DNA of 64,000 nucleotides from Chlorella sorokiniana. Taxonomy: Eukaryota; Chlorophyta; Trebouxiophyceae; Chlorellales; Chlorellaceae. The position numbers and the translations under genes were made by a program. Positions 508 through 59,970 of the stretch are shown one piece after another (within the stretch, counting starts at the first letter, position 1; every line of letters begins with the position of its first letter). The stretch covers positions 496,001 through 560,000 of the forward strand of contig CP084610.1 of assembly GCA_025917655.1 (NCBI GenBank), read 5' to 3'. The notes under the pieces were generated by a model that made no database searches, was not told the DNA's origin, and worked only from the letters and a program-made list of their open reading frames with translations.

Positions 508-2858
508 ATGAAGGAGGTTGTTGCGGAGCGAACCACACGCTGCCAGAACGGGACAACACGGGCGTGCCTTGCCGTGATCACCTTCCTGTATCTTGCGACG
601 GTGTTCAACGTGGTGCGCCCCGCTGCTCGTCACGCCGCCCTGATGCCGGCGCGCCTGCCGCCGGCGCTACAAGCAGGCGTGCCTGCCTTCAACCCACCGC
701 CGCCCTGCTCCCTGGCATGTCCAGATTGTGCCACATTTGGGATACTCGGTGCACGGGGCAAGCCACCTGCTCATCTTCACCGCGCTGACGGCCGTGGCAA
801 GCACATGCTACCTGCAGTGCGTATATTGTGAACCAGGTGAAGCGGGGCCATGCTGCGGTGCAAGCTGGTGCACGGAGGATGCATCCTCCTGCAGTGTGGG
901 CCTTGCCACCCCTTGAAGCCGTTTGTTCTCCCGGCCGCTGCAGGCAGCGTGCCACCTGGGTGGCAGCCTGATGCCGAGCAGCAAGCGTCGACGGGCGTGC
1001 TGCAAGTCAAGCGCAGCGGCGGGGGCGGCGGTGCGTGGGCTGGGAGCCGTTCTCGCCGCGCTGCCGAGGCAGCACATGCCGCCCGCTGTATGCTGCCGTC
1101 CAGCATGTCTTGGACTGCTTGCAATAAAGTCACCAGTCTGCCTTGGGTTGCTTGCAGCAAAATGAAGCGTGGGTCCCCGCCTGCCAGCCCTCCCCTTGCA
1201 GATTTTGCAAGAAGTGCCAGGCCTTCAAGCCGCCGCGCCGCACCACTGCCGCCGCTGCGGTCACTGCGTGCTGCGCATGGACCACCATTGGTGGGTGGGT
1301 GGGTGGGCGGGTGAGGTTGGGGCTGCAGAAGTAGAGATGAGTTGGGCTGCGAGGGTGGTGGGCAGGGCTGCCGTTGCCAGCTCTGGCGAACCTCCAGACC
1401 ACTGGCGGACCCCCACCCCAGCCCCATCTCCGCATGCACAGCTCACACCCCCTAAACCCCTGCTCTCCTCTCAGCCACTTTCACCATCACATACACCAGA
1501 ACCCCCCCCGCCTTCGCAGCATCTGGGTGAACAACTGCATAGGGCACGGCAACTACCGCGCCTTCCTGCTGATGTGCGCCTACCTGGCGGCGGCCTGCCT
1601 GCACGCGCTGGGCCTGCTGCTGCAGCTGGACGCACACCTGGCGCAGGCGGGTGGCGCCCTGCAGGGCCCGGGCGTCAGTGTGTGTGTGTGTATGTGTGAG
1701 AGTGTGTGTGTGATGGTGGAGTGGGGGCGTCTGCAGCAGGGCAGGGGGCCAGGCGGGCGGCAGGCATGCATGCGTGCGGGGCGGGGCGGCGGCGGCGGCA
1801 CTGCCCTGTGCAAACCCTACGCAGCCCAGCCTGCCGGCAGCAGCAGGTGATAGAGGAGCAGGGCCTCGCCTTGAGCGCCGGCGCCTCTGGCAGGGTCCAC
1901 CCCTGCGCTGCAGTGAGGCCTGGTGCGCCGCCCAGGCCTGCGGTCCGCTTGCCTGGCTTGCTCACTTGGCCGCGTGGAACCCCATGCCCGCAGCTTGCCC
2001 TGGGCTGGGACGAGCAGAGCCGGCTGGCGGCGGCGGCAGGCGGCCAGCACGCCGCGCATCAGCTGCCCGGCGGCGACGCCGAAGCGGGCCGAGCGGCGGC
2101 AGCAGCATTGGCAGCAGGGTGGGCTGGAGCGGGCCCTTCTGGGCGCACGCCGCCGTGCAGGTGCGGGCGTGTGTCGGTGCAGCCGCCGCCGCCGGTCGCA
2201 GCCATGTTCACGCAGCATCCATCCAACAAAGGCTTCGTTTTGCTCCGCCCTCCTCCTCGCTGGCCCCCTGCAGGTGCTGGCTACCGCCGCCGCCCTGCCG
2301 ATCAGCGTTGGGCTGGGAGTGCTGCTGGTGTGGAACGCCACCCTCTTCCTGCGCAACCAGACCACAATCGAATACCACGAGGGTGGGTGGGTGATGTGTG
2401 GGGAAGAGTGAGGGGCCAGGGGGCGAGGCATGGCTGGGCACAGCAGCGGCGGCGGCGCCTGCCAGGACATGTTGCTTTTGTTTGCGCGCTCCACCCAGGT
2501 GCCTTTTGCTTTCTCCCATCACTACCCACCATGCATGCTTGCTGCGCGTCACCCACCTTCCCTTCCAACACGCCCCCACACCTTTCTTCACCGCTGCACG
2601 CTTTCCTGCCCCGCAGGAGTGGTTGCGCGGTTCATGGCCCCAGGCAGCGGTGGCAGCGCCGGCGGCGGCGCGGCAACCTCACGCCACCCCTTCGACCTCG
2701 GCTGGGAGGGCAACGCGGCGGCGGTGTGCGGCGACAGCGCGGCGTGCTGGCCGCTGCCTGGCCGCGCCGCAGCCGCGGGCGACGGCCTGCACTTTGCCTC
2801 GCCCTTCGGCGGCGGCCGCGGGCTGGATGCTGACGGGCAGCCGGGGCAGCAGCAGTGA
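508..2858 (+). CDS. DHHC-type protein S-acyltransferase (palmitoyltransferase)
   Basis: This enzyme attaches palmitate to cysteines of membrane-associated proteins, normally on Golgi, endoplasmic reticulum or plasma membrane. The start ATG at 508 opens a first helix (ACLAVITFLYLATVF); a second helix lies at about 740-810. The cysteine-rich domain follows at 1205-1290 (FCKKC, HHCRRCGHC, MDHHC) and continues after an intron with WVNNCIGHGNY. Intron 1291-1519 splits the catalytic cysteine codon: TG at 1289-1290, C at 1520. Two more helices follow (YRAFLLMCAYLAAACL and the stretch at about 2270-2340). TTIEYHEG corresponds to the family TTxE motif, and HPFDLGWEGN near 2690 resembles the C-terminal PaCCT block. 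The tail is Gly/Ala/Gln-rich and stops at 2856-2858. Frame breaks near 720 and 1237 look like missing bases. The family is certain; substrate and location are not visible. Confidence 0.88.
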
Positions 2859-4257
2859 CGGAAGGTTGGGGAGCGCCTGCCCGCGCCGTCGAGGCCCTTG
2901 GCGGTGCGGCATCGGCGGCCTGCCTGTTGTGCACGTGCATCGTCGCTAGCTTACAAGCGTGCAAACGTACAGAATGAACGAAAGCAAAGCCACAAAACGA
3001 AATGAAGGAGAAGCCCGCTACGTGCGAAATGAAAAGCGGCAGGGGGTATCGGGGAGCGGGCCTGGCAGGCAAGGGCATTCATTAGGAGTTGAGGGGGAGG
3101 TGGTGGCTGCGCCCGAGCAAAACAGGGGGTTCGGAGGGCCGGGCAGCAGGGCCTCGGCAGGCACGCCGCCGCTCCACGGGCACCAGCGCTCCCCACCACA
3201 GGCGGCGGCGGGGCAGCGGGACCCGCGGGGTCTGCGGCATGCAGGGAAAAAAGGGGGGCAGTGCTCTGGGCAGCCCCCGCCTGGGGCGCACAGGCTGTTG
3301 GCACCGCGCTGCCACGCCGCGCGGGAGTGCCGCGGGGGGCCAGCGCAACATATACACATATGCAGGCAATAGGGGGCCAGCCAGGCAATGGGAGAGCGGC
3401 CAGGGTATGGCGGGCACGTCCAAAATCGAAAGGGAGCGGGAGCAAAGGAGCACCAATCTGCTTCATTCGTTGTGTATATCAGGGCAAACGCATGGGCCTT
3501 TGCCCGGGGGCGCGCGCAAGCGCGGCAGGCCCCGGGAGGCAAAGGCAAATCTCGGGGAGCAGGCCGACGGCATTTGGCGTGGCTGGCGGCCCGCCGCGGC
3601 GACTGGGTCCACCCAATCGCCACGGCGGCGCAGCATGCAGGCTGCGCTGCAGGGGGCCACCCGTCTGGTGGGTGGCCCCGAATGAATAGCAGGTGGGGCG
3701 CGGAGCGCCGCACAGGGAAGCACACTGGAGAGGGCAGAGCAAAACCAAAAAGAGGGTGCAGCTGCTGGTTGCAGGGCGGCGGCTCCAGTGAGCGCCGAAA
3801 TGAAGGCAGGAAGAGAATAAGGGCGCGGGCGCCGAGGGGAAAGGGGTTTGGGCAATTGGGGGCAGCGCAGGTTTGCAGTGCACAGGGCGGGGCTTGTTTG
3901 CAGCCGCTGCTGTGTGGGGCCAATAGCAGGTGGGAGGGGTCGGCGTGTTGGCAAGGCGGGATCATCATCAGGGAGAGAGGGGAAGCAGCAAGGGCAAAAA
4001 TTATCAGGAGGGCAGGCGGGAGCCGGGCTGCCAGGGACAAGGCGGGCGTCGTTCGTTGGTCCCCCAGTGGGGAGGCAGTCCTCAGACAGGTGGCGCGTGT
4101 TGCGACCAGGGTTTCGCTTGCTGTGGCGCTGTGGCCGTTGGGGCGTTGGGGTGCGGAGGGGCCGGCCGGCACGCCGCGCATGCGCATCAACTGAGCGCAG
4201 GCGCGGCAGGAAGCCGCGGGGCGTATTCCGCTCGGCGTGTTGGCTGCGCGGCGGCGC
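2859..4257. other. Convergent 3' region between palmitoyltransferase and CCT gene
   Basis: This 1.4-kb stretch holds the 3' ends of two converging genes. A TGTAA on the minus strand at 2955-2951 lies about 1.3 kb past the CCT gene stop, implying a very long 3' untranslated region for that gene. It also falls within 100 bases of the palmitoyltransferase stop. No TGTAA was found on the plus strand. Open frames of 268 (+) and 390 (-) codons exist, but they are low in complexity, lack recognisable domains and probably reflect high GC and purine skew. Confidence 0.5.
2951..2955 (-). terminator. TGTAA poly(A) signal of the CCT-domain gene
   Basis: TGTAA read on the minus strand, about 1.3 kb beyond the CCT gene stop. 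It is the first such element seen downstream; assignment to that gene is an inference. Confidence 0.45.
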
Positions 4258-6670
4258 TCAGCACACCGTCGCGATGCTGGCGTCGGCCTGCTCGCTGGCG
4301 TCAGAGGCGGGGGGACCCGATGGCGCGCCCGCCGCCGCCTCCGCCTCTGCCTCCAGGATGGCGGCAGCCTCGCCAGCCTTCACAAACCGGCCCTGCAGGA
4401 GCAAAGGGGGGAAAGCATTCGGGTGAAAAGCGGCAGGAGATGAGGGGGGGGCGCTGCAAGGGAGCGACAAGGCCGCGCCCAGCCGCAGCTCCCAAGCCCG
4501 GCCTACAGCGCTGTTGCGCAGCCGCTGCCACCCCCTTGCTGTACCTCCTGTCCAGGAGAGGACAGGCACAAGCGAGCCCCGACGGAAGCATGCTAGAGGG
4601 GACCAGGCGAGGACGACGACAGGGAGCGCGAGGTGCCGCGGCGCCGCCCCACACCTTGACGCGCGGTCGGCGGTCGGCGTTGACCTTGCGCGCCACGTAG
4701 CGTATGCGCTTGGCGAAGCCGCGCCGCGCTTTCTTCTCGCGGTAGCGCTCCAGGCTGCGCTGGCGGGCCAGGCGGGCGGCTGCAGGGGGAGGGGTATGGG
4801 GGGGAGGGGGAGTTGAGAGTTCACAGCGGCGGCAGCAGAATAGGCAGCCGGGTGTCGTGTTGCCGCTGAGCAGGCTGCAGCGTGCATGCGCAGCTGGGTG
4901 TTGCCGCCGCTCTCACTCACTCTGCGCTGCTGGGGAGTCTGGCTCGTAGTAGAAGGGCAGGGGCATGGGGGAAGGCGGCGTAGGCGGCGGCGTCGGGGCC
5001 CCAGGGCGGCAGCTGGGGCAGGCCGGCCGGCGGCGGCGCCGGCGCCACGTCGGGCACGACCTGCGCGCTGCTGAGCTGGCGCGCCATGCCTGCGCCGCAC
5101 GGGTCCTCCACATCGCTCGACTCGCTGGGGGCGTCGCGGAAGGGCGAGCTCGGCACGGCGGGAGCACCCGGCTGGCGGGCGGCGCCGCCGTAGCGGTGGG
5201 GCGCGGCGCCGCTGGGGCAGCAGCCGCCGCGGCCGTTGCTGCCGCTGTCGTTGGTGGCTGAGGCGTCCAGGCTGGGGCGCAGGCGCAGGTGGGTGTCGGA
5301 GGCGTCGCCGGACCCGCCGGAGCCGGAGGGCGCGTGGCGCCTGGCCGGCAGCGGCAGCGGCACCAGCTGGAAGGCGCCCGGCGGCGGCCCGCCCGCCAGC
5401 ATCGCCGCCATGCCGGCGTCAAAGCCGGCGGGCGGCGCCAGCCCGTGCATCAGGCCCATCTGGGCGGCCGGGGCTGGGTAGTAGCCCAGCGGGGCGCCTG
5501 GAAGGCGGCGAGCGAGCCGGGCGGCGCACCCGCCAGCGGCACCCAGTCGCCGCCGGGCGGGCAGCGCGCGTGGGGCGCCCCTCCGGGCGACAGGGCCATG
5601 CCCGGCGCCTCCGATTCGCCCTCATAGTCCATGGCCGGGGCAGGGTTTGGGATCATGTGGCAGTGCGGCGCCAGGGGCAGCGCGCCGCCGCCGCCGCCGC
5701 CGCACGCCGCGCCCGGGTGCATGAGCTTGGCCGCCATGCCGGGCTGCAGCGGGAGCTGCGCGGCCTGGGGGTGTGGGGCGCGCGCGGCGCCTCCTCGGCC
5801 AGGGCGTCCAGGGGGGCGGCTGGGGCGAGGCGCTGGGGGAGGCAAAGGCTGCGGGGGGTCGGAGGCACCGCCCAGCTGCAGCTCGCACTCCATGGCCAAG
5901 CCGTCCACCCAGGGCGCACCCTCGCGCATCTCCTGCATCAGGTCGCCCAAGTCGTCTGCGGGGAACGGGCAGGAGGAGAGCAGGGTCGGTTGGGGGCCGG
6001 TGAGTCGGCGGCACGCGGTTGGGCGGCGTAATCCCCGGCTGCGCGGCGAGACCTGAGCCCTCGCACCTGGCTCCCCGCGCCCGGAGGCGGCGTAGAACAT
6101 GTCGTCGTCCTCCTCATCCTTGATGGCGCAGGCGGGGACCTGCGGGAGGTCGAGGCCACGCTGATCGGGCTGCACACAAGCCTGGCTTCTGCTGGCACGC
6201 CCGCCCCGCCGCGCTGGGTTGCCAGACGTAGCGATGCGGGATGTTGCAAACAGCAAAGGAAATGCCAGGCGCCCAGCGGGCTAAAGCGCGCTGAAAAAGT
6301 GAAACTAGGCTCGCCCGCGCTCGCTCACCTGAACCCGGGTGGGCCCGGCGCGCCCGACACGAAGGGCGCCTGCAGCGATAGGCTCGATGCCTGCAGCGAG
6401 CGGCTCGTCATGGTGCTTGTGCGCGCGGGTGGGGATGGCTCGTTGGATAAAAGCCTCTGTGGGAATCGTCGCGCTCTGCAACAACAACCATGTACTATTT
6501 GGAGACCATTTGGGGACCTGCAACCCCGCGAAAGGCGGGCAAAAGCAGGCTCGACACTCCCCAGCTTGGCCCACCTGAGCTTGCAGGCCCGTGAATGTGT
6601 TCAAAATAGTCGACTGAGGATCCAGTGCGTAAAATAACGGGGGTTGCAGCGCCATGGGGGCCATGACCAA
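4258..6670 (-). CDS. CCT-domain transcriptional regulator without visible B-box
   Basis: The CCT domain (CONSTANS, CO-like, TOC1) binds DNA with NF-YB/NF-YC and controls light, clock or flowering-type responses in plants. The C-terminal exons encode the diagnostic basic stretch: LERYREKKARRGFAKRIRY, then RKVNADRRPRVK, and after an intron (4393-4654) GRFVKAGEA. Upstream are an acidic patch (KDEEDDDMFYAASG near 6100), DDLGDLMQEM near 5940, and long Pro/Gly/Ala-rich disordered segments. The protein ends ASIATVC. The start at 6670 (MAPMALQPPLFYAL follows) is the most plausible but the first exon junctions are uncertain. No B-box or receiver domain is seen, so it is neither a typical CONSTANS-like nor a full pseudo-response regulator. 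Breaks in C/G runs at 4967 and 5491 interrupt the frame. Confidence 0.72.
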
Positions 6671-7433
6671 CGTGCCCAGGGCGCTGCATGGGAGTCGGGA
6701 GAAAAGCAGCCGGGTTTGGCCAGCAGCCGCTCTGGCGTGAAACAGACGTCGATGAGGACCAAATAAAGTGATCGGGGCCGCCGAGGGCCCAGCCTGTGCA
6801 CCCTAGAATTTCGGCGCCCTGCGCGGCTGCGCAATACACCTGCTCATGAGGCTCGCCGTCTGCAACAGACCGAGCACCTCCATGCAGTGGGTGCTGGTGA
6901 CACACTTGCACACAGTTTGATTTTTGTTCCGTGTCTGGGTAACCACCGCGGGCCCGGTACATGCCACCGCTGCTGCTCCAGTTCCGAAGAGCATTGGCAT
7001 GTTCACATGCAAGGGCTCATCGGGTCATCAAAGAGAATTCATGATGGTGGCATGTGTGCATTCTGTAGTTCCCCATCTCAGTGCATGCCATTCTTGAAGG
7101 ACACCTTTTGGGCGGACAGCGGCGCGCAGCAGCGCGCTCCCCGCGTACACATTGCCCTGTTCTACCCTCTGTGTCGCTTCCATTCTCACTCCCTTTCCTA
7201 TCTGACCAAATTCCCTCTAATCCCCCCATATGGCCGACCCCTTTTCGGGTTTGGTCACCAGCCTTGACGCGGCTCTGGCCTGCCCGGCGCATTCAGATTT
7301 TACACTATTACTGCGCAGCTTAGATGAATTAATGTCGTATGTCAGGACCTGCACGCGTGGCCAAACCCTGCCGCCCAGCCTCGCAAGGTGACTGCGCCCT
7401 CGGTGGCTGGTGTTCTGAGTCCGCCAAGATGCG
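6671..7433. other. Divergent intergenic region, CCT gene and MYND gene
   Basis: The two genes point away from each other, so this stretch probably contains both promoters. Composition is less GC-rich than the exons. No conserved exon, RNA gene or repeat was recognised. Confidence 0.4.
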
Positions 7434-10400
7434 TTGTGGAGACCTTGCCCCCGCGCCCGCAGTTCGTGCGCCAAGCTGTGCGAGCGCTTTGCGGCGGCAG
7501 CGGTCGACCTTCGGCGGCGGCAGGAGCAACCCCTGACGATCTTGAGCGCTATCTCAACGGGCCTGGTCGCTGTGTTGACTCTGCTGAAAGCGGGACAGCT
7601 TTTGCTGCACGATGGCGACTGCGTCCGGCTCTTTACCACAGCAGGCATGTGGGCGCAGCGACCAGCCGGCATCGCTGCCACTGAGCCTGTCTGCTGACCT
7701 TGCATCTCCCCTGTGCCCCCTGCAGTGGTCCCCCTCGAGCTGTCGGCCAGCCGGCTGCAGGCCTTGGTGCGGGAAGCTGAGGCACTGCAGCGGCAGCCGC
7801 CAAGCGGGCAGCGCAGTATGGAGCTGGCCGAGTTGAGGGCCGAGCTGGCCGAGCTTCTGTGCTCCAGCGGTTTGGGCGCGGAGCGGCTGCTGTCCTGCGT
7901 GTCGCCCGACTCACGCTTGGCGCCGCGGGTGCAGAGCGTGCTGCTTGCTGGGGCGCTGCGGCCGTCCTCCTTGCAGAGCTGGCTGCGGGCCACCGCCGCG
8001 GCTGCCCACTGCTTGATTTGCTGGGCCCAGGGTGAGGGCAGGGTTGCGTGGATGGGGGCGGGGCAGCATGCGGCAGCATACAGGGCTGACATGACCCGCC
8101 TGCTGCGTGCACAGGCGACCATGCCATACCTCCGCCCCTTCACAGGGTCCATGCCCGTCGTCACTGCACCTCAAACATCCTCTCAGCAGCAGCCGACCCT
8201 GCGCACGTCCCCGCAGGCAGCGACGGCGAAGGGCGCATGGCGATGGTCCTGCAGCCGATGCTGTCGACCGTGGAACTGATCAACGACGACCATCGCACCA
8301 ATGAGGCCATGGCTCGCCTGAGGGACGAGGCTCCCGAGGCTCACCGCCAGCTGGTGGGGGTGGCGGCTTCGGCATACTGCAGCCTGCTGTCGCCAGGCGG
8401 GCAGCCGCTGCCAGACGACACGGAGGTGTGGGCGCTGGAAATGGCGGCAGCGTCCATCCTGGCTGCCAGCCTTGCTTCCCGGTCCGCTGGCAGCGTGAGC
8501 TGGCTGCGTGGCGCGGCAGCGACGACGGCGGCGGCAGCGGCGAGACGCCCAGCGTGCTCCTTCGCGCTGCCGAGCTCGCGTCGGCGCGAGACATGGCGCA
8601 GGCACCTGATGCCCAGGCGCACTTCCCCCGGATGCACAGCCAACGTCTGGCGTTGCAGCTGATGCGGGATGCAGCGGACGAGCAGGAGGAAGGCGGCGCC
8701 ACCGTGCCCCTGGCCTGCTGAGGGCGGTGGTCAGCACGCTGTGCACGCTGGCACACGCGCTGCACGATGCGGCGGCGGCCGTGGCGGCCGCGGCGCCGCC
8801 TGCTGCAGGGCAGGACCCGTTAACCTTCGGCAGCGCATGCTGGAAGTGCCCCCAGTCGTGGACATACATGATGGCGGAGTGGGCGCTGGCGGCTTCCAGC
8901 CTGGCCGATCTCGATATCAGCGCCGCCCTGGACCGCCACCCAGACCCCAGCGGCGCAGCCGTGGCGACCTGCACAGCCGTCGTTGCGCTGCTGCGCCTGC
9001 TGCCCTCCTGCCGGCGCAGCCGGTGATGTCTGGGGAAGGCACGGGCGTTGTGACCGCGGCAGTGGCTGTGGCTGCGGTGGGGGCGTCACCGCTTTGGACA
9101 GGATCTTCCTGTCGTCTGAAGATGAGAAGACGCTGTTTGAGGTGCCGGGGTGGCTGCTATGGTGCTCACATCCATGGTGCCGCCGCTTGCGGCCAGCCTG
9201 CTTCGCCACGGTTATGGGCTTGCACGAGAGGCGGCCGCCCGTGGCGCCCCTCACTGCGATCGGGACGGCGCCGCCGCGCTGACGTCCCTGGCCGCCGCGT
9301 GCCGCTACGCACATGCACTGGCGGCTGCGCTGGGCTTGGGGGATGCTGTGCCCTCGAGCAGCGAAGCGGCACCACAGCTGCTGGTGCTACCCGCCAGGAG
9401 CTTGGTTTTGGAAGCGGCTGAGCTGCTGAACACAACCTGGCAGGTTTTTGAGCAGTACCATAAGCACTCGGCCGTGCCAAACCATGACCAGGCCAGGTGG
9501 GTGTGGTGGGCCCAGCCCAGGCCCCTCCTTGCCCGCCCACCTGTCGGGTCGCCTGACGCCAGCTGGCAGTGCCCGCGGTGTCCCCGCGCGGCTGCTAAAT
9601 CATCAGCAGGAAACCCCTCTTGCAGGCGCCTGGACTGCGGGCTGCTGCTGTACGTGTCTGCGCTGCGCGCGCTGCCCCTGAGCGCGGGCAGGGCCCTCCC
9701 GGACAGCAGCGCAGACGACTCAGACGACTCAGACGATGAAGCCGGGCCGCTGGAGGATTGGGCGACGTGCGGGAGAGCCCGCTGCGCCTCGCTGCTGCAC
9801 GGCCTTAGCACAGCGGGCCCCCGACGGCAGCCTGCTGCTCCAGCTGCTGCAGAGCGGCGGCGGCCTCCCGCTGGGGGCGGCGGCGGCAGAGACGTTTACG
9901 CAAGCGTCTTCGGAGTCGTTGCAGGCGAGTGTTGGACTGTGGCATGACGGGTTATGCAGCACGTGCAGGTGATCTGCGGGTTCCTCGTAGGTTCAGTGCT
10001 CTTGCATTATCGACCAACACCCCGCTGTACTGCTTTGCCCCCTTGCAGATCTGTCTGCTTCAGCAAACCGGACGCCGCTGCATGCCTGCGCTGGAGCTGC
10101 TTGTTGCGGCGCTGTGCCACGAGTCAGTCCCGGCAGCTGCCGTCGCGGTTATGGCTGGCGACTACGAGCTGCTGCGCGTGCTGTGCGCGACTGGCAGGCA
10201 GGCAGCGGTGGCAGCAGAGGTCAATGCCGAGGTGGGACGCGCAGCCCTCAGGTCCATGTCCAGCTACTTTTCTTGCTGCTTCAAAACAGCAACAGCCAGA
10301 AGCAATGGGCTGCTGCGGTGAAGGCCCCCCTCTCCGCCCCCTCCCCCACACACACATGCTTGCTGCGCAGGCGCTTGCCCCGCTGCGCCTGGTGCTGCAA

Positions 10401-11535: not shown

Positions 11536-12673
11536 ATGAGGGCCCGCCCTGCCTGCTCCCTGCTGCTGGCCTGCCTGGTGCTGTTTGCTGGGTGCACCTC
11601 GGCTGACCCCATCGCCAGTGAGTCGGGCTTGGGAGGCAGCGGCGGCAGCGGTGGTCAGTGCTGGTGCTGACAGCTGGCAGCCGGTTGGGGCTCTGGGTGG
11701 TGATCAAGCCCCGTCCTGCATCCTTCAGAACACCTCATTTGCACCCTTCTTCGCCACCCACATTCGCAGGCCGCAAGCTGCTGGCCACCGCCGTGGCAAC
11801 CGCCAACGCTAAGGCAGCCAACGGCGGCACCGCAGTGGCCAACTCCCAGGCCGCAGCCACGGGCCGCGGCACCGCCATCGCAAACAGCGACGCCACCGCG
11901 GTGAGGGGCTGGGGTGGCAGCACTGATGAGCACGCATGTGCATGACACATCAATGCCACGCTTGCTAAGTGCCTACCCTGCTCCTTGCCCACTCCCTCCC
12001 CCGCAGATCGGCCGTGGGTCCCTGGCAACCGCAAATGCCAACGCAGAGGCCAGCGGCCACGGCACCGCCCTGGCCGATGCCCGCGCCCAGGCAGTCTCCA
12101 CCGGCCACGGCGCGGCGCTGGCCACCGCCGACGCTCAGGCCATTGCCCGTGGGGGAGCACCGCCATTGCCCAGGCCTCGGCCCAGGCCTTTGCCTCTGGC
12201 CAGGGTGCCGCGCTGGCTCAGGTGTGTGTGACTGTATTTGTGTTTGCTGGGGGAGGCTTGGCTGTGGCTGCCATGCTGGGTGCTGGCTTGAGGGACAGGC
12301 GGCCGGGTGCCTGCTGGTCTCCTTGATGATCCACCTCCAAGCTTCTGTCCCATCGGCCGCTCATCCCTTTCTCCTTCACCTGCAGGCCGCCGCCACCGCC
12401 TACGCCGCTGGCGACACCGGTGCCGCCGTCGCCCTCGCCCACGCCACCGCCAACGCCATCGGCAGCGGCGTTGCCACCGCGGATGCCCTTGCCACGGCCC
12501 TGGCCACTGGCGGCGGCTTTGCCTCCGCATTTGCGTTTGCGCTGGCGCAGGCCTTTGGCAGCAACACCGCGCCGCTGTGCCAGGCCCTGGCCGCTGCTCA
12601 GGCCACGGCCGTTGCGCAGGGCAGCGCCGCGTTTGCGCAGGCAGCGGCGCAGGCCTTTGCTGCCTGCTTCTGA
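11536..12673 (+). CDS. Secreted Ala-rich silk-like repeat protein
   Basis: Four exons: 11536-11617, 11770-11900, 12007-12221 and 12386-12673, all with GT-AG junctions. Residues 1-23 form a clear signal peptide (LLLACLVLFAGCTSA). The mature chain of about 210 residues is almost only Ala, Gly, Thr, Ser, Gln and Asn, arranged in about ten repeats of 14-17 residues. Each begins with a Gly-rich turn followed by alternating alanines, as in GHGTALADARAQAVST, GHGAALATADAQAIA and GQGAALAQ. The last part is more hydrophobic (FASAFAFALAQAF) and holds the only cysteines of the mature chain (one before QALAAAQATA, one in the final AACF). Exons 3 and 4 are phase 0 at both ends. A G run at 12151-12155 is one base short for the frame. 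Alternating small residues suggest stacked beta or silk-like assembly; a role in cell wall or matrix is inferred only. Confidence 0.8.
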
Positions 12674-13207: not shown

Positions 13208-14861
13208 TCATCCCTCCAGCTTCCGCACCAGCATCGGCTGCTCCTGACGGATGAGGGTGGGCGCGCCGCCGCCGAAGAGGCCTGGCATTGGCAGCGAGGC
13301 CGGGCGCCACGCCGCCGCCGCCGCCAGCAGCTGTGGTGGCCGGTGGGGCGGCACCGCCCCCGCCCCGGGCCCCGCGTAGTCTTCTGTGAGCGGCACCATG
13401 CCGGGCGCATTGAGCGAGGGCTGCGGCGGCGGCATGGCCAGGTTGTGGCGCGGCAGGGAGGCGGGCCTGGCGGGCAGGAAGTTGTTGGCCAGGTCGACGT
13501 TCAGCCTGCGAGGCAGGGCGTGGGGGCAGCAGGTTGCAGCCATGATTCAGCAAGAACGCAGCCGGTTGGCCCCAAACCCTTGCGTGCATGCTGCTTCCAA
13601 CGTTGCGTTTTGGCATCCCAACAGCGCCCTTGCTGCACCCCTTGATCTCAATCCAGAGCAGGCGCACATCCCATGCCGACACCCCGCCAGCTCCTCCCCT
13701 GTCCCAAGCCTGCCACGCCCCACCACATACCACCACCACTCCGCCCCTTCGTCCCCCATCCCGCTGCCCACCTGACTGGCAGCTGCGGCATTTGTGCCAT
13801 GACCCCCATGGCCTCCATGGCGTTGATGATGGCCAGGATGTTGTCCCGAAAGGCCACCAGCAGCTCCGTGTTCTCCCCACCTTGAACTCCGCCATGTTGG
13901 CTCGAAACTGCGGCGGGGACACAGGAAGTATGGCACTTGGAAGCTGACACATACAGATGAGCGCAGAGCACAATGTGTGTGTGTGTGTGGTGGTGGTGTG
14001 GTGTGGTGTGGGGGGTGGCAGGGCGCAAGGGAAGCCGAGCGGAGGGTGGCTGTGACACCAGCGGCGCCGCACGCGCCGCTGCTGCCGCCGCTGCTGCTGC
14101 TGATGATGACGATGGTTGCCGCTGCTGCTGACGCGTGGCAACCCACTACTGCCCCAGCTTTCCAGCGCCGCACCTCGTTCAGGATGGCAAAGTTGGCTTC
14201 AAGCAGCTGCGCGATGGGCCCCGCGATGACGGCGCTGGTGGGAGAGTCGGCAGGCAGGGCGGCTGCCGTGGGTGGGAGTGCCGGCATGCCGGGCATCTGC
14301 GGTGCACAGTGGTGGAGTTGATGGTGTGGGTAATGACAGTGGGGACACAGCACAGTTTGGGGGGAGGGAGGGCGGGCACGCGGGGCAGCACAGCGCGGCA
14401 TGCGGCAGCCTGATGCAAACTGGCGGGGCGGGGCAGGCATTGATGGCACTGCCGCGTTTGGCAGCGTCCGGCCTGGCCCGCTGCAAGCTTGCTGGCTATT
14501 AACAGGTGCAAAGGGCTCACCATGGGCACAGGCGGCAGGGTGGGGGCCTTGGGAGGTAGCAAACCCGGCGCAAGCAGCTTTTTGGCGCCGGACGATGTCG
14601 GCAGGAGCTCCCCGGCTTTCGCTTCTTGAGCTGCTGCTGGTTTATCGTCCATCGTGCTCGCAGAGCAACATCCCGCACGCTTTTGCGGGGCAGCATCGCA
14701 GCTATTTTGACGTAGCGCTGCACCATGTCGTAATGGTCGGGTGGGTACCTTGCCATGCCCGCCTCCAGGGCCCTCTGCTCCTCTTCTGTCCAGTCAAGAG
14801 CTACGGGCCAGGCGGGTGGCGCCAAGTAGCCTGGTGCTGGGGGCGGCAGCGCTACAGCCAT
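13208..14861 (-). CDS. SANT/Myb-like nuclear protein with DUF3755 block
   Basis: Four exons on the minus strand: 14861-14521, 14296-14174, 13907-13772 and 13505-13208. The N-terminus carries a SANT/Myb-like domain (DWTEEEQRALEAGMARYP, then MVQRYVKIAAMLPRKSVRD and VALRARW), followed by a basic patch QLKKRKPG. The middle has IAQLLEANFAILNEF, and the third exon has FRDNILAIINAMEAMG followed by QMPQLPV. The fourth has LNVDLANNFLP. This order and these phrases match the plant DUF3755 family (Arabidopsis At3g07565, from memory), a conserved nuclear protein family of unknown exact role. G runs at 14610-14613 and 13875-13878 (C on the plus strand) are each one base short for the conserved frame. It is divergent from the tryptophanyl-tRNA synthetase gene with 600 bases between. 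Confidence 0.85.
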
Positions 14862-15459: not shown

Positions 15460-18400
15460 ATGACTGCTGGAGAGGCGGAGCAGCAGGCTGCATGCAACGG
15501 GGAGCAGCAGCAGCAACCGAATGATGGGCAGCAAGAGCAACAGCTGCAGGATGGGGAGCAGGTAAGCCTGACCCTCCACCCTCCACCGTCTTTGACATGC
15601 CGTCTCGCTTTGAAGGCCTCTAGCAGCAGATTTAGGCCGCATGGGCCGCAATTTGCTATCTGCAGTCCCTCACCGGCTGCTGCTACAGCGCAGTGTGCCG
15701 GTGCCACGCCGCCGCCTCCTGCCGCCGCTGCCCGATCGCGAGTGTCTGCAACCCTCCTGCTGCTCAGGTGGTGACCCCTTGGGACGTGGCTGGCGGCGCC
15801 GACGGCAAGATTGACTACAACAAGCTTGTGGCCCAGTTTGGGTGCCAGACGATAGACAGCAAGCTGGTGGAGCGGATAGAGCGGCTGACGGGCGCCCCCG
15901 CGCACCCCTTTCTGAAGCGCGGCATCTTCTTCGCGCACAGGCACGTGGCCGAGAGCAGGGCGCAGCAGCGACAAACCTCCTTGCATCAGACGCACGGGGC
16001 TGTTTACGGGGTGCAAAGGCCGCATGCGGAGCGCCAATCGAGCGCTTGGGCCTCGCCCCCTGTGCCCCCGCTGCCGCTGCCGCCGTCAGCGCTGCTCAGC
16101 GGCGTGCTTGTGGGTGCTGCGCCCTGCAGAGACCTGAACGAGCTGCTGGATGCGTACGAGCGGGGGAGAAGTTCTACTTGTACACGGGCCGGGTGAGGCG
16201 AGGCCTGCTGGCAAACCTGACGGCATGAGGGGCCCTGCAATTCTCTGGAGATGTGCCACGCCCGTCTGGGCCACCGCGAGGCTGCTCACTCTCCCGCGAG
16301 CCCCTCCGCCGATCCACTGCCTCGTTTCATCCTACCGCCTGCCGTCTCCCCCTTGTGCGCGTCCTTTCTTCCTGCCTGCAGGGCCCCTCCAGCGAGGCCC
16401 TGCACTTGGGCCACCTTGTGCCCTTCATGTTCACCAAGTGGCTGCAGGTGTGTGGGGGAGGGGTGTGCGCATGTGTGCGTGTGTATGTTGTAAGTGTGCG
16501 CTGTGTTCGCGGCGTGTGCATGTGTGTGTTTTTGTGTGTGTTGGGGTTAGCAGAGCCGGAGGTGGCGCTGACCCAGGCCTGGGGTGTGAGCAGCGCTTCC
16601 CGGGCCGGCAAGCGCACGGCACATCTTTGCTCGCGCTTGTGTGTTGCGAGGAAGGCATTCTGGGCGGGGTGGGGCCCAAGCACTCTTGGGGCATAGCGGC
16701 TTTGGCATGTAAGCCGCTGCGCCTGATACATCCCCCTCCCCCTCCCAAACAACAACAGGACGCGTTCAAGGTACCGCTGGTGATCCAGCTCACCGACGAC
16801 GAGAAGTTCCTGTGGAGGTGCGGGGCCGCCTGAGGCAAAGGCAGCGCCTCGCCAGCTTCCTCCTGCCAGCCGCTTCCTTGCTGCTGCCGCGCTGGCAGGG
16901 CATGCTGCGCCGAGGGACGACTCCCATTGCTGGGCGTCGCGTCGGCTGCTGCAACCGCGTCGGCCTCCACCACACGGATGTTGCTGCCTTGAGCGGCACG
17001 CCTGTGTCAGCCCAGCAATGCCCCTCGAAGTTGCGGGCCCTTGTGCCGCCGCAGGGGGCTGTCTGTGGAGGAGGCGCAGCGGCTGGCCCGCGAGAACTGC
17101 AAGGACATCATCGCCTGCGGCTTTGACGTGCGCCGCACCTTCATCTTCTCCGACTTTGAGTACGTGGGCGGCGCCTTCTACCGCAACATCGCCCGCATCC
17201 AGCGGTGAGGCGGCGGCGAGGCGGGGACGGCGGCGGCAGGGGGTGACATCACGGCAGCAGAGGAGGCAGCATGGCAGCGCAGGAGGGGTTCCAAGCAGCC
17301 GGGCAGCCCCGACTGCTTGGGGCCGGACGGGAGGGGCTTGCCGGCGGGCAGTGCAGGGGCGGTGCAAGACGCAGGGGCCTGTCCCGACCTCGCAGCGACC
17401 CTTGGCAGCACGGTAGCACTCCCGAACCCGGCCTGTATGCCTCACCAACCTCCGCCGCTCTGGTCCCTCGCCCCCCTTCCTGTTTGTGTTGCCCAGGTGC
17501 GTGCCGATGAACCAGGTGCGCGGCATCTTTGGTTTCACCACAGACGACCACATCGGCAAGATCGCCTTCCCAGCGGTGCAGGTGGGCAGCGATTGAGCGG
17601 GGATCAAGGGGGGGGGTAAGGGCGTTTTGGTTTGAGTTTGGATTTGATTTCTGGGGCCCCGCGGGGGGGACACGCTTTGGTTTTGGAGCTGTGGAAATGG
17701 GGGTGTGGGGGATGTGCAGAGCAGCCCGCGCTGTTTCAGCATGCGTACAGTGCGCAACCTGCGAGTCGCTGCGTCCCGTTGTCCCCTAACCACCCACCCA
17801 TCCCGAGGACCCCCTGCAGGCAGCCCCCGCCTTCCCCGACTCCTTCCCCCACATGTTTGGGGAGCGCAAGGACGTGCGGTGAGCGGGCTGCAACCCACAC
17901 ATCTTTCTGCGAGCTGCTTCGTGCGCTCTCCTTTGGACGCTTGGCTTGATGTAATCCCCCACCCCACCCATATGCACGCACACATACACACCTCCCACCC
18001 ACACTCGCACCTCGGCGGCCCACTGCGCACTGACCCCCCTTCCCGCTGAGGTGCAGGTGCCTCATCCCCTGCGCCATCGACCAGGACCCTTACTTCCGCA
18101 TGACCCGCGACTGCGCCCGCGCCTGGGCCACGCCAAGACCGCGCTCATCGAGTCGCGCTTCTTCCCGGCGCTGCAGGTGGGGCCCGGTGTGCCTGTGTGG
18201 GGGGTTGGGCCAGGAACGAGCAATGAAGGCCGGAGTGCGCCTTCATGGGGAGGGAGAGGCTGGGGAGGCAGCCGCCGCAAGCTGCCCGTGTCCCAGTTGC
18301 GGGGGCGAGGCAAGCGGGGCGGGAAGCGAGGCGGGCCTTTACCTATGCACCGGAGCCCACCCGCCTGCCTTGCCGCCCGCCACGCTGGCCGCAGGGCGAG

Positions 18401-19548
18401 AGCGGCAAGATGAGCGCCAGCGACCAGAACAGCGCCATCTTCGTCAAGTGAGGCGCCCAGCCTGGCTGGGGCGTAGCGCGGCTGTGCATCGCTGCATGCT
18501 GCGCCAGCCTGCTGGCTGCCCAAGCTGCCGGTTGTGCCCAGCATGGGCCACAGCCCACCGATGACACTTGCCCCTGCCCCCCCCCCGCAGCGACACGCCC
18601 AAACAGATCAAGAGCAAGGTGACCAAGTACGCCTTCAGCGGCGGCGGCGCCACAGTGGAGGAGCACAGGGCCAGGGGTGCGCTGCGCTGCCGCTGTGCGC
18701 CGGTGCATGCGCTTCCGGCGAGCGAGCTGAGCGAGCATGCTCCGAGGCGGGGGGTTCCTGTCAGCGCCGCTTGCCTGCGCCTGCTGAGCCCGCTGCGTGC
18801 ACGGGCTCCCATCCCCTGCCTCCCCGCTCCTCGCCTGGCTGTGCCCTCCTCCCTGCCCACCTTTGCCGCTGAGAGGCAAGCATGCACACATGGGGCCTTC
18901 ATTCCTATTACGTTTCTCATTACAGTTTCCTACTACAAATCCTTTTCCAAAGCTACAGATGTGACCACTGGGCCTTCATTCCTATTACGTTTCTCATGAC
19001 AGTTCCTGCTGCAACTCCTATTCCAAGTATTCCAAAGCTCCAGACGCGACCACCGCACCACACACCTCACTCCGCAGGCGCCAACCTGGAGGTGGACGTG
19101 CCCTGGAAGTGGCTCAACTTCTTCCTGGAGGACGACGCACGCCTGGCGCAGGTACGGGACGGTACCGCCGCGTGCGCCTGTCGGCAGCGCAGCGGCGCGG
19201 TGGGGTTCCCGCGGCAGCGGGGCCGGGCCGCGAGCCAGCAAGGTGGACTGCGTCGTGTCACGTCCCGGCCAGCCAGCCGCCGCTCTTTCTCTCCCGCCTC
19301 ACCTGGCTCCCCGCCAGGCAGCCCGTCTGAGCGCTGCTCCCACGCCCTTGCACGCCCGCCCGCCCCCTCCTCCCCAGATTGGCGACGCGTATGGCAGCGG
19401 GCGCATGCTGACCGGCGAGATCAAGGCGGAGCTGGTGGGTGTGCTGACGGAGATTGTGGAGCGGCACAAGGCCGCCCGTGCCGCCGTCAGCGACGACGTG
19501 GTCGACGCCTTCATGACGGTGCGCCCCATGACTGACCTGTGGGGCTGA
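15460..19548 (+). CDS. WARS1: Tryptophanyl-tRNA synthetase, eukaryotic cytosolic type
   Basis: Charges tRNA-Trp with tryptophan in the cytosol. Thirteen exons can be placed: 15460-15561, 15768-15940, 16130-16192, 16382-16447, 16759-16817, 17055-17204, 17497-17581, 17820-17878, 18057-18176, 18395-18447, 18591-18676, 19078-19151, 19378-19548. The class I signature appears as [13 protein letters not shown] (HIGH motif), and [13 protein letters not shown] carries the KMSKS equivalent. Other family blocks are [51 protein letters not shown] and the C-terminal MTGEIK-like [12 protein letters not shown]. The N-terminus is Gln-rich and has no WHEP domain or evident transit peptide, in line with a cytosolic enzyme. 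Intron 2 appears to start with GC (15941). Runs at 16162-16166 (G) and 18116-18118 (C) are one base short. A TGTAA follows at 19671. Confidence 0.96.
18893..19053 (+). repeat. Diverged ~80-bp tandem duplication inside WARS intron 11
   Basis: Two adjacent copies, 18893-18969 and 18970 to about 19053. The first 28 bases are identical (beginning GGGCCTTCATTCC). The rest is similar, with small indels and substitutions. Both are AT-richer than the flanks and lie just before the 3' splice site at 19077. Confidence 0.8.
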
Positions 19549-20048: not shown

Positions 20049-23036
20049 ATGCTGCGCAGAGCGGGCTTGACGGCCCTGCGCCAGCAAGGCGGAGGCGCTT
20101 CCCTGGTGGAGAGCCTTCAGGCCGTCGCGCATGAAGCCCAGGGGTGAGCCGCGCGCCGCAGGCTGGGCGCAGGACGCCAGTCGGCTCGAGCGGGCGGCGC
20201 CTGTCCTACCCACGCCCTGCGACGCCGCTAGTCAACCTTGCTTCCTTCCTGCTTTGCAGGGCTGTGCGCGAGGCCGCGGAGGGCACCTCCCGGGCGTGTC
20301 CACCCTTGCAGGTGGGGGCTGCTCTTTAATCGGTTGCAGCAGCTGTGGTGTGCTGCCTGTGCCCTGCGGCGGGCCCGTCGTCTGATGGTTGGTGCCTGTG
20401 CGCCCTCCAATGCCTGCAGTCAAGCAGCGCATGAAGTCGGTAGCAAACATCCAGAAGATCACAAAGGCGATGAAGATGGTGGCAGCCTCCAAGATGCGCA
20501 GCGCGCAGGTGGGTGCTGCGGCAGCGCTGCAGCGGCAGCCGCCCCGAGCGCCCGCCCAGCAGCCCACCCAGCCTGCCGGAGCACAGGCGCCCGCCACCCA
20601 CTGCCCGGTCGGTTGGGCGCTCAGCGGCATGACCCAGGCGCACACCGTCGCTTTCCGCTCCTGTGCAGGTTAACACGGAGAACAGCCGCGGCATCGTGAA
20701 GCCCTTCCTGCGCATGCTGGGCGACTACCCCGCCGCTCCGGGCGCCAAGGCCGTCTTTGTGCCCATCACCTCGGACAAGGGCCTGTGCGGCGGCATCAAC
20801 TCCACCGTGTGCAAGTGAGGGGCGCGGCCAGGCCGCTTCCGCTTGGCTTGTGGGGCACCCGGGCCGCTGGGCCCATTGCCCACTGGGGGAGCGTTGCCCA
20901 CTTGCAAGGGGCTTGGGAGGCACGGGTCAGCTGGCGCCGTTGCAGGGCGGGACCTGGGGGCGACCACGAGCGGCAGTCCAGCAGCACGCTGTGTGTGCGC
21001 ACGGCTTGGCTTGCCCGGCATGCTCACACTCGGGCGCGATGCTTCCTCTGCCTGCTCTCAACCAGGTACACCCGCGCCGCCATCAAGGCTGTGGAGGACG
21101 GCGCCGTCGCCGCCGAGGGCTCGAGCCCACCCCCGCCCAGCTGGTCGTGCTGGGCGAGAAGGGGCGCAGCCAGCTGCAGCGCGACATGCGCGACCGCATC
21201 TTCGCGACTGTTGCGGGTTAGCGTGAAGTCTGATGGCTGGGGTGGCGTTGGGAGGCTGGGTCCAGCGCTGTACTGCCTGTCGGCTCGGCGGGGCAGCGCG
21301 GGGCAGCCGCTGGGCACGCCGCCGACGGGCGCGTGCGGTGGCAAGCGCCCTGCAGCCCCGCGCCTCACGATGCTCTTTTACCTCACCGCTGTGCCTCACC
21401 GTGCTCTTTTGCCGCACCGCTGTGCCTTACCGTGCTCTTTTGCCGCACCGCTGCTGCGCCGCAGACACCACCAAGGTGCGGGCGACGTTCCCGCAGGCCT
21501 CGGCCATCGCGGAGGAGGTGAGCGGCGGCGGCGGCGGCTGCCTGCCTGCCTGCCTGTGGGCTGCTGCCTGCTTGCGCCAGCAGGTCCCACCTGCCCGCCC
21601 CCTCCCCCCTTCCTGCTGCCACTGCCACCCCTGCTTGGTACAGCCTCAGCTGCTGCTACCCGCCACGCCGCCCGCTTCTTCGCCCCGTGTGGATTGTTGA
21701 GCTGGCATGCGCCTGGTGCAACCCGCCCTGTACTGCCCCGCTCGTACCGCAGCTGCTGAAGACGGAGTACGACACCGTGCGCCTGCTGTACAACCGCTTT
21801 GTGTCTGCCATCTCCCAGAAGCCCACCATCGCTACCGTGCTTTCGCCAGACGTGAGCCGCCGACAGCCCACACCGCCGCTGCCGCCGCCGCACAGCCTGG
21901 CTTCGTTGCGCCTGCGCTGCGCTGCCGCCTGCTGCTGCCGCCGCTGTATGACAGCGCGCCTGCTTCGGGCTGGCACTGCCCCCTGCTGCTCCCGTCTCGC
22001 GACTTGACCACAGCGCCGCACAGGCTACGCTGCCTGCCTGCCCCCTCGTCCCGCCCAACCTTGCCTGCCCCGCGCTGCCCCCCCATTTCAGTCCCTGGAG
22101 CGCGCGGCTGCCGAGGGCGGCGCCATTGAGAGCTACGAGCTGGAGGGGCCCGACCGCGCCGAGATGCTGATGGACCTGGCGGAGTTCCAGCTGGCGTCGG
22201 TGAGGCTGGGCGCGGCTGCGTGGGTGGGGTTGTGGCGGTCAGTGCGTTGGCCTTTATGGGTCGGTCTGTGTGGGGGTGGGGTGGGGGATGGCGGGGCGCG
22301 CTCAACAGGCGGAGCTGCCCTCACCCAGAACACCCCCTTCCCCTCCTTCCTCCACCAATCGTGCGTGCAGACTCTGTACAACGCGATGCTGGAGAACAAC
22401 TGCTCCGAGCAGTCGAGCCGCATGAGCGCGATGGAAAACTCCACCAAGAACGCGGGGAGATGCTGGGCAAGGTGGGTGGCACAGCATAATGGTACAGCAC
22501 AGCCGCTGCTGTTGCAGTGGGGCTGGCGGAAAAGGGGCAGGAACCAAGAGAATGATCCGGCTCGGTGCGGCGGGTTGGCGGGGGCCGGCTCACGCCACGC
22601 GCTTTTACCGGCTCGCGCCACCCTAAATACAAACCTTTATTCGGGCGGCGACCTGCCCGGTACCTCCCCTGTTTGTTTGTTGCGCGTTTTTCTTGCGGTG
22701 CCGACCCCCGACCATCCACCTCCCATCGCCCCCTCCTTCCGCGCCTGCAGCTCACGCTGACGTACAACCGCACCCGCCAGGCCACCATCACCACGGAGCT
22801 CATTGAGATGTGGGTTCTTGGCTTTTTTTTGGGGGGGGGGCTGTTCCCTGTTGGCGTTCTTTTGAGTGTCGGCAGAAGGCTGTCGCCAGCGGCGTTATGT
22901 CGATTGATGTTGCATGGCTGGTCAGTGTTGAGGCTACGGTGCTAAGGATGGCAAGCGTCTCGCTCAAGCGTGTTGCTGTGGTGCCCATGCCCCCGTTTTG
23001 TGCAGCATTTCCGGCGCCACCGCGCTGGCGGGCTGA
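20049..23036 (+). CDS. ATP3: Mitochondrial ATP synthase F1 gamma subunit
   Basis: The gamma subunit is the rotating central shaft of the mitochondrial F1 motor. Eleven exons can be placed: 20049-20143, 20260-20309, 20420-20508, 20669-20814, 21066-21216, 21465-21517, 21753-21851, 22092-22199, 22371-22471, 22751-22809, 23006-23036. An amphipathic Arg-rich N-terminus (MLRRAGLTALRQQ) fits a mitochondrial presequence. Family blocks are MKSVANIQKITKAMKMVAAS, ITSDKGLCGGINSTVCK, YNRFVSAISQKPTIATVLSP, NAMLENNCSEQSSRMSAME, and the C-terminal LTLTYNRTRQATITTELIEI. The sequence follows the mitochondrial, not the chloroplast, form: the regulatory cysteine insert of chloroplast gamma is absent. Breaks at 20289-20291 (C), 21117-21119 (G) and 22454-22457 (G) are single-base shortfalls. 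TGTAA lies at 23314. Confidence 0.96.
21365..21460 (+). repeat. Three-copy 31-bp tandem repeat before a 3' splice site
   Basis: Copies at 21365-21395, 21396-21426 and 21427 to about 21460 share the core GTGCTCTTTTGCCGCACCGC (first copy slightly diverged). The array supplies the pyrimidine tract and ends at the acceptor 21464 of ATP synthase gamma exon 6. Confidence 0.85.
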
Positions 23037-42780: not shown

Positions 42781-44287
42781 GATGAACAGGCCGCGACACA
42801 TCGGGGCGCGCTGCCCACGCAGGCCGGCAGAACCCTGCGGCCGTTGCGCCGCGCAGGCGCTTGGTCGGGCAGCTCTGCGCCTGCTGCTCCCCACAGTCTG
42901 GCTGGCTGCCGGGCGCACGGCGGCACAGTCCACAAACGCAGCCTCGCCACCCGTGGGCGGCGCGGCCCCCTCTGTGAGCAGCGGTGGCCAAGGTGGCCGC
43001 CCGGCTGGCATGCGGTTGTTGTGACAGTGTTCATCAGTCTGGGTGCAATCCTCTGCATTGTGGCAGGTGAGGGGCTTGCGTGGCACCAGCGCACTCCAAC
43101 AGCAGCTGCTGGGGAGCATGCGCCGGGGCTGGCAGCCAGATGCGCGGAGGCAGGGCGGGACCAACCCGCCGCCCGCTCAGCTGCGTCCGCCTGCCCCAGG
43201 CGGCGTCGCGATGGCCAGTGCTCTCATCAGCAACAACCCTTGGGCGCCTGCCCCCGGCCCCCACACATCCCCACCCAACTCCACCTGCCACCCCCCGCAG
43301 TGACCCTCATGATTCACCGCTACATGCGCCGTGTGCGGCAGCGCATGCTGGCGGCGGTGGCTGACATCCACAGCGCTGAGCTGGCGGCACACGAGGTGGG
43401 GTGGGGTGGGGGTGGTTGTGTAACAGACGCAAGGGTACGCAGGCACAACTGCGCACCCCGCCCGCCCATGGGCCCAGGCTACACGCCCAAGTGTGCAGGC
43501 TCTTCCGCGTTCCCAAACCAGACTGCGTCTTTTCCCCTCCCCCGGCCCTCCCCTCCAGGCCGCCAACTTGCAGGCCGCGCAGCGCTGGCACGCCGCCTCG
43601 CCGTACGCGTCGCGGCAGCGGATTCAGCTGGAGCAGCCGGAGAGGGGGCCCGAGGGAGGGCGTGAAGAGGGTGCGGCGGCGGCGGCGGCGCCGCCGCCAG
43701 CCGCAGAAGCGAGCCGCCCTGGTCATCCAACCGGATCTGGGGCTGGACATGGGGGTGGAGAGCGATGGGTGGGAAGCAGGCGCACAGATGGGCGGCGACA
43801 CACCCGACGCCGGCGCGCCAGCAGCAGCGGCAGCAGCGGCGGCGCCAGCGGCAGCGGGAGCCGCGGCGGGGCTCGCGGGCCGCTGACGCCGTCGGCAGCC
43901 ACCACGCTGTCGGCGGCGACGGCTGCGCCGCAGGCGACCCCGATGCCGGCTCGTGTGCAGCGGCTGGCGATTGAGCTGCCAGAGCTGGGAGCGACGGTGC
44001 TGGTCTTCCTTCCGGTGCCGCCCTCCCTGCTGCTGCAGCTGCCTGAGCAGCTGGAGGGCGGCGGCGGGCGGCGGCAGCCGCCGCCGATGTCTTGCGTGGA
44101 GGTGCGGCCGGTGGGGGAGCTGGAGCAGGAGCAGGGGGAGGCGCATGTTGAGGCGGGGCGGCAGCAGCAGCAGCAGCAGCAGCAGGAGGAGCGTGGACAG
44201 CAGCGGGAGACGCCACCAGCTATGAGCAGCCGCGGGAGCAGCTGGGAAGGCGGCCGCGAGGGCTCGGAACCTGGGCCGACCGCTTAG
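42781..44287 (+). CDS. Single-pass membrane protein with disordered Gln/Gly-rich tail
   Basis: The start MNRPRHIGARCPRRP at 42781 is followed by a hydrophobic stretch (AALRLLLPTVWLAAG) that may be a signal peptide. A strong membrane helix (VVVTVFISLGAILCIVA at about 43015-43065) follows and joins across an intron to TLMIHRYMRRVRQRML. The next exon holds LQAAQRWHAASPYASRQR. Then come Ala/Gly-rich disorder and a short ordered piece, RLAIELPELGATVLVFLPVP near 43960-44020. The tail is Gln/Glu-rich with a Q8 tract and stops at 44287. A C run at 43000-43002 is one base short for the frame into the helix. The short ordered piece after the helix is reminiscent of plant ATL-type proteins, but no RING finger is seen. 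Function unknown. Confidence 0.55.
44161..44185 (+). repeat. CAG repeat encoding Q8
   Basis: Eight CAG codons in the tail of the single-pass membrane protein. Confidence 0.85.
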
Positions 44288-44758: not shown

Positions 44759-49395
<4,637 letters not shown>

Positions 49396-58747: not shown

Positions 58748-59630
58748 CTACAGCCCAGGCTGGTGTGTGGCTACCGGGTTCGATGTGAGGACATGCAAGT
58801 CGGACAAACTGGGATAGGCGAAGCCGCACTGTTGAGGAGTATCAGAAGATCTCAAATTAATGACGGTTTCAGGGCCGCGGTTGCTGCTCAAGAGCCTATG
58901 CAGCTCTTGCCCCCGACTCCGACAGCGGCCTGCGCCCTGCAACTCCTGTCAACCGGTCTGAGCGGAATGGGCAACGCCTCACATCGGCTGATCAGACAGA
59001 AAGGCCGACCGAACACGGGTTGTTGCCAACGCGTTGAACCGCCACCATGGCGAGCGCGGACAAGAATGCAAAAATGTGGGATGGAGTATCATGCCCTCCA
59101 AACGGCGATATTTCGATGCACTCAATTGTCCGTTGAGGATCTAAACAGGCCCCGCTCCTCTGCAATGGACATGGTTTGGCTGACTGGGGCGCTGGGGCGA
59201 GTGGTGCAGAAGCCGCCCCAACCCGCTTGCGCCCATGCCCATCATGAATTACTCTGCTATGACGATTCTGTTTCTCTGCCCAAAGAGCCTTTGCAGAACG
59301 CTTGCTGCGCCCTGATGCACACGTCAAACGTACAAGGCCAACACCACGACCCTTCCTCCTGATGCTCCATGCACGCCGCCCCTCAACTTCCATGCATTGC
59401 CCAACATGAAAACCATTCTCAGTTTGATGCAGCCCCCACCGCAGGAAAAATTCTGTGTCTATTGTGCGTGTCCCTTGTGATCCACCTTCGTGCCCACAAT
59501 CCACTTGAGCAGATGCACGGGGCACAGCCTCACTGAGCCTCCAGCAGGGGGCAGCTTTACCTTTAGGAGAGTTGTCGCTGCTTGGGCCAAGTTCCCAATG
59601 TGATTGTGTGTTTAAAGCCTGTAAAGAGAG
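58748..59630 (+). other. Intergenic upstream of orphan transporter exons
   Basis: Promoter side of the SBP gene. Searched in three plus-strand frames for transporter helices that should precede the exons at 59631; none was seen. The region is AT-richer than exons and looks non-coding. Confidence 0.45.
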
Positions 59631-59970
59631 GCGTCACCCTGTCTGGCTACTTCGTTGCTTTCCTGGCCGTGTGCTGGTGAGCAGCGCTCTGCCTGCGGCG
59701 CTGGCTGCTGGTGCAGTGCACCGCAGTGTGCTCTTGGTGCATGCCTGCACTTACAGGCGGCCAAGCCCCTGTGTCCCACCAGTGCATGCCCCTCCGCTTC
59801 ACATGTCCAGGTACAACTACCAAAACTACAAGCCATGAAGGAGGCTGCCAGCCTGGCGCCCTCCAAAACCGGAGCAGCTGCTGGCAGAGGCGGCGCCCAT
59901 GAAGGGCGGCAAAAAGGCGGCGACGCTTCTGCCGGTTGCCCCAAGCACTACCTCTGTCTATAATGTGTGA
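59631..59970 (+). pseudogene. Orphan C-terminal exons of a TPT/nucleotide-sugar transporter-like gene
   Basis: Two exons only. The first (about 59631-59676) encodes the last membrane helix, VTLSGYFVAFLAVC. It has a GT donor at 59677 and joins in phase to an exon at 59811, giving W then YNYQNYKP. A one-base C shortfall near 59833 leads on to MKEAASLAPSK. After another shift comes PEQLLAEAAPMKGGKKAA, then LLPVAPSTTSVYNV and a stop at 59968-59970. The helix followed by WYNYQ-K is the usual C-terminal signature of the triose-phosphate/nucleotide-sugar transporter family. Nine earlier helices should precede it, but the SBP gene starts only 900 bases upstream and nothing matching was found. It is therefore a gene fragment, a partial duplicate or a misassembly. 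Family call is inferred from about 25 residues. Confidence 0.45.

Follow-up and report, generated by a model that had tools for sequence, protein, structure and literature searches.

Frame breaks at short C and G runs in a Chlorella sorokiniana assembly are very probably homopolymer-length errors

Introduction

Are the frame breaks found in conserved genes of Chlorella sorokiniana part of the biology of the alga, or were they introduced when its genome was put together? The question is raised by a window of 64,000 nucleotides (the whole stretch of DNA that was analysed, bases 496001-560000 of contig C9), for which a preliminary description claimed frame jumps at sixteen G/C runs. One additional G or C was said to restore the family sequence in each case, and shortening of homopolymers in the reads or the assembly was proposed as the cause. 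The genome comprises 38.8 Mb in 15 contigs, with 41 matches to the chlorophyll a/b-binding family, as fits a photosynthetic green alga, and the GC content across the window ranges from 62 to 75% in 2-kb steps. No tRNA was found in the window by ARAGORN, and no Rfam family reached the gathering score there.

Breaks of this kind have precedents in long-read assemblies. In the nanopore-only assembly of Drechmeria coniospora, indels of homopolymer length break conserved genes and are tied to runs of four or more, and about one fifth of the checked genes were wrong after long-read polishing (PMC7500977). Likewise, the Kastor report describes the indel errors of long-read bacterial drafts as mostly false deletions, which are commonest after runs of four to five (PMC12007338).

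Breaks in three conserved genes

Each of the sixteen listed sites was read in six frames. A codon model, for which 8,081 bases of conserved exons served as the training set, weighed three cases over 45 bases on either side: an unshifted frame, one missing base and one extra base. In addition, conserved peptides of tryptophanyl-tRNA synthetase (TrpRS), mitochondrial ATP synthase gamma and enolase were placed on the DNA as 38 pieces. Adjoining pieces overlap by one base at 16166, 18117, 21120 and 22457, a single codon between 20290 and 20293 has two bases only, and the remaining gaps between pieces are all at least 108 bases long. The five joins in TrpRS and gamma hence meet or overlap by one base and leave no space for an intron. 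This bears directly on the proposal that ordinary short introns, or splice sites that were misread, lie behind the jumps, which could appeal to the abundance of introns in these genes and to the location of the enolase site at an exon end. Against such joins, and with 24 histone genes that align to their paralogues without introns, that proposal is extremely unlikely.

The cytosolic-type TrpRS gene (15768-19545, plus strand) is one base short at two places. The first is a run of five at 16162-16166 (plus strand), where the peptides at 16131-16166 and 16166-16192 share one base, and the second is a run of three at 18116-18118 (plus strand), where the peptides at 18058-18117 and 18117-18176 do the same. 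Human TrpRS (1o5t) is continuous across both sites. A Pfam search for PF00579 listed no match in this gene, probably because of its short exons and its frame breaks.

The gene for mitochondrial ATP synthase gamma, on the plus strand, is one base short at three places. At the end of the transit peptide, in the motif CCCGGG at 20289-20294, one missing base is preferred by 15.0 log units; the gamma homologue aligns on the downstream side only, and the call is based on the frame and the exon phase in the transit-peptide region. At the run of three at 21117-21119, with its peptide overlap of one base at 21120, the alignment to the homologue extends over both sides and is gapped close to the join. 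The third shortfall lies in a run of four in the C-terminal part (22454-22457), where the peptides overlap at 22457 and the gamma subunit of Polytomella (6rd4) is continuous across the site.

In enolase, on the minus strand, a run of four at 47293-47296 is one base short at the end of an exon before a GT donor, by 9.0 log units. The two Enolase_C matches that flank it end at position 75 and start at position 77, respectively, and the next exon begins in phase 0 after an AG. The loss is called because the phases of the two exons match only with a base missing.

These six losses fall within 3,351 coding bases, or about one per 0.6 kb, a rate that comes from three genes picked because breaks had already been noticed in them. 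The number of loci for each gene, with the best candidates scored, is also informative. For enolase, 7 of 7 matches lie at one locus; for TrpRS, 9 of 9 lie on C9, in the gene of the window; and the gamma family has two loci, with four matches in the gene of the window and four on C1, the latter taken to be the plastid form. The earlier argument that real mutations are improbable in essential genes is strengthened by the finding of one locus each for enolase, TrpRS and the mitochondrial-type gamma. The possibility that the breaks are true frameshift mutations, and the genes decaying copies, is disfavoured, since genes for which no second locus was found among the best candidates carry one (enolase), two (TrpRS) and three (mitochondrial-type gamma) breaks.

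The sixteen sites under the codon model

One missing base gave the best score at 14 of the 16 listed sites, so that the claim of frame jumps at these runs stands as a whole, apart from site 4967, where the shift has the opposite sign, and site 59833, which is doubtful. The margins of one missing base over no shift extend from 2.3 log units (8515) and 2.4 (1237), the two small margins among the 14, up to 28.3 (18116). At 22454 one missing base ties with one extra base, each being 9.4 log units above no shift. The six scores from TrpRS, gamma and enolase are not independent, as these genes belong to the set on which the model was trained. Further, at 7 of the 16 sites (1237, 8515, 14610, 20289, 22454, 43000 and 59833) not even the highest total reaches zero; the model therefore ranks the frames there, and taken alone it would not class the 90 bases as coding. 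Family similarity on both sides of the break is available for 1237 (PF01529), 13875 (PF12579), 16162, 18116, 21117, 22454 and 47293, while frame continuity is the basis for 5491, 8515, 8707, 12151, 14610 and 43000.

Outside the three genes above, two shortfalls lie within recognised domains. The exon of a DHHC palmitoyltransferase is one base short at 1237-1242 (plus strand), where CC is observed in a C/G-rich stretch, and the peptide joined across the site matches PF01529 (DHHC) with an E value of 7.2e-10. Similarly, a run of four at 13875-13878 (minus strand) is one base short inside DUF3755 by 18.9 log units, and the joined peptide matches PF12579 with an E value of 1.8e-11. Upstream of it on the same strand, a further run of four at 14610-14613 is one base short by 10.1 log units, in a region with a Myb-like match below the cut-off.

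The sites that rest on frame continuity are of several kinds. A low-complexity protein is one base short in a run of four at 5491-5494 (minus strand), by 10.8 log units over no shift, and a repetitive, alanine-rich protein is so in a run of five at 12151-12155 (plus strand), by 20.7 log units; a decoder of coding potential, described below, placed a loss at both. The frame around the latter site, at 11977-12220 of the window (plus strand), reads as a repetitive protein rich in alanine and glycine. A run of four at 8707-8710 (plus strand) is one base short by 25.5 log units and a run of two at 8515-8516 (plus strand) is probably so, its exact place being uncertain; no Pfam family was found at either. 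A hydrophobic segment is one base short in a run of three at 43000-43002 (plus strand), by 11.9 log units.

The general statement that one additional G or C restores the family sequence fails at the run of five at 4967-4971 (minus strand). A surplus of one base, or a deficit of two, fits best there, with scores of 6.3 for one extra base, -8.9 for one missing base and -17.1 for no shift, and the site appears as a gain in the output of the decoder. At 59833-59834 (plus strand) the codon model prefers one missing base by 19.0 log units, and the claimed shortfall is not established: the site is doubtful because no recognisable gene was found there and because onward reading needs an opposite shift about 35 bases later, near 59867.

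Histone genes as an independent test

The core histone genes (H3, H4, H2A and H2B) lie in six clusters, four on contig C11 and two on C12, and allow comparison among paralogues. On alignment of the coding DNA to the paralogues, one base was missing in 6 of the 24 genes (one H3, one H4, one H2A and three H2B), and an extra base was present in none of the 24. The losses lie in a C run of four (the H3 and two of the H2B genes), a C run of five (H2A) and a G pair (H4); the position of the third H2B loss is ambiguous, and it was counted as a run of six. Six losses in 8,715 histone bases correspond to about one per 1.5 kb.

The losses depend steeply on the length of the run. Among C/G runs of at least four, about 5 of 48 carried a loss, a figure that falls to 4 of 48 when the H2B loss of ambiguous position is left out of the runs. 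Among C/G runs of two to three it was 1 of 1,372 (Fisher p 2.1e-7 for 5/48 against 1/1,372). None of the 504 A/T runs of two or more carried one, only 19 of these being longer than two.

The same genes speak to decay. Intact histone paralogues exist, so a broken copy could be tolerable, and the two H2B genes with a common loss (C11:1595715-1596154 and C11:1521253-1521692) are separate loci in which the same base is absent in the same context. They differ at 2 positions only, which resembles an inherited mutation, and for this reason the common loss may be one inherited event and not two; it may represent a context-dependent error that occurred more than once, inheritance of the loss, or gene conversion. 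Decaying copies, on the other hand, are at odds with the finding that in all six broken genes the family protein sequence goes on unchanged in the next frame, each side of the break in the H3 copy showing 100% identity to the reference, and with losses that track run length. Taken with the single loci found for the window genes, mutation and decay are very unlikely as the general explanation.

The histones also bear on the idea that the run lengths are real and that the cell corrects them, either by adding C or G to the transcript or through a change of ribosomal frame at C/G runs. If the assembly were right in this manner, many nuclear genes would be one base short in the DNA and yet normal proteins would be made. 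It is in favour of this idea that conserved genes traced to one locus are otherwise intact, and that most shifts share one sign and one type of sequence. Programmed frameshifting or insertion editing would, however, be expected to decode a given context uniformly, and the H2B genes do not behave so. The base is absent in 2 of the 6 H2B genes and kept by 4, one of which matches the 25 bases before and the 12 bases after the run; the local sequence therefore does not set a decoding rule. Moreover, about 43 of the 48 histone C/G runs of at least four are read normally.

Direction of the shifts and the run-length spectrum

A two-strand decoder that allows introns and frame jumps was seeded with conserved exons and then self-trained. 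Over 152,257 bases, 43,914 of them assigned to coding sequence, the decoder reported 20 losses and 8 gains. Within the window it reported 10 losses and 6 gains, with 18,122 of the 64,000 bases decoded as coding, and it missed 11 of the 16 listed sites. Of the shifts planted in the window, 23 of 135 losses and 30 of 135 gains were recovered. As the decoder was no better at finding planted losses than planted gains, it is not the source of the excess of losses. A C/G run of at least four lay within 6 bases of 9 of the 20 losses and 1 of the 8 gains, the background being 6.0% of 6,600 coding positions. Decoding of coding potential by itself was rejected as a census because it is too insensitive in a genome so rich in introns and GC, and it was used for the direction of the asymmetry only. 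It flagged nothing at 23.7-26.0 and 60.3-63.4 kb, the two genes that the preliminary description gave as free of breaks, a result from a decoder that recovers only about one fifth of planted shifts.

Shifts of the other sign are nevertheless present. HSP70 genes were taken from five contigs, of which the C3 copy was read base by base and the others were compared as translated exon matches. The HSP70-like gene on C3 (L043, C3:1270300-1273300) has two frame jumps of opposite sign at G runs at 1270965-1270969 and 1271077-1271081, both of observed length five, and one of the two looks like an extra base or two missing bases. This site and 4967 are the evidence against a picture of pure loss, and a few extra-base errors probably exist in the assembly. 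In the decoder output, three one-base gains are clustered at 27353-27691 of the window (plus strand), possibly through a misplaced frame.

The lengths of the C/G runs in the whole window depart from those expected under an order-4 Markov model. The model predicts 102 runs of six and seven, and 45 are present; it predicts 220 runs of five, and 272 are present, as though part of the longer ones had been recorded as five. Simple capping at five was ruled out by the 28 C/G runs of eight or more in the window. There are 18 runs of length 8 against 6 of length 7 in the window, an excess for which simple capping gives no account; the comparison also covered 91.5 kb from elsewhere in the genome, which has 13 of length 7 and 3 of length 8, with no bump at 8.

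Both results weigh further against correction by the cell: some shifts carry the other sign, and the spectrum is distorted across a window in which only the fraction given above was decoded as coding. Together with the H2B comparison, they make editing or frameshifting extremely unlikely.

Probable source of the breaks and consequences for gene models

Very probably, then, the frame breaks reflect a known class of error, in which homopolymer lengths are miscalled in a long-read consensus, and do not belong to the biology of the alga. Such errors account for the position of the breaks, their sign, their dependence on run length and their scatter among paralogues. The class is recognised by single-base indels in runs, by a frequency that rises with run length and by a spread beyond one locus. 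Among the histone losses, 5 of 6 lie in C/G runs of at least four (one being ambiguous) and the sixth in a G pair; the frequency rises with the length of the histone C/G runs; and contigs C9, C11 and C3 are all affected. The shortening of homopolymers proposed in the preliminary description is thus supported by the histone losses, the intact paralogues and the steep dependence on C/G run length.

We infer that the cause lies in the reads or the consensus and, because 38.8 Mb are contained in 15 contigs, that the platform was an error-prone long-read one. On this explanation the DNA of the alga would be intact, and the assembly would give short C and G runs too few bases. Reads that do not resolve run length would be merged into a consensus that is one base short, in the histone genes at an estimated one in ten of the C/G runs of four or more, and accurate short reads were probably never used to correct this consensus. 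Each miss within an exon would shift the frame and lead gene finders to split genes or to invent short introns. Hence, the gene models of this assembly are not a sound basis for conclusions on gene loss, pseudogenes, short introns or protein lengths.

As in Drechmeria coniospora, conserved genes are frame-broken in a contiguous assembly and runs of at least four are involved; unlike there, where polishing left more insertions than deletions, losses dominate in the Chlorella assembly (PMC7500977). As in the drafts treated by Kastor, false deletions split genes; in the genome of that report, however, A/T runs were hit more than G/C runs, whereas the histone A/T runs here, few of them longer than two, carried no loss (PMC12007338).

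Finally, all six histone losses fall on C11, which carries 16 of the genes, and the 8 genes on C12 are all clean, which suggests that the error rate may vary between contigs.
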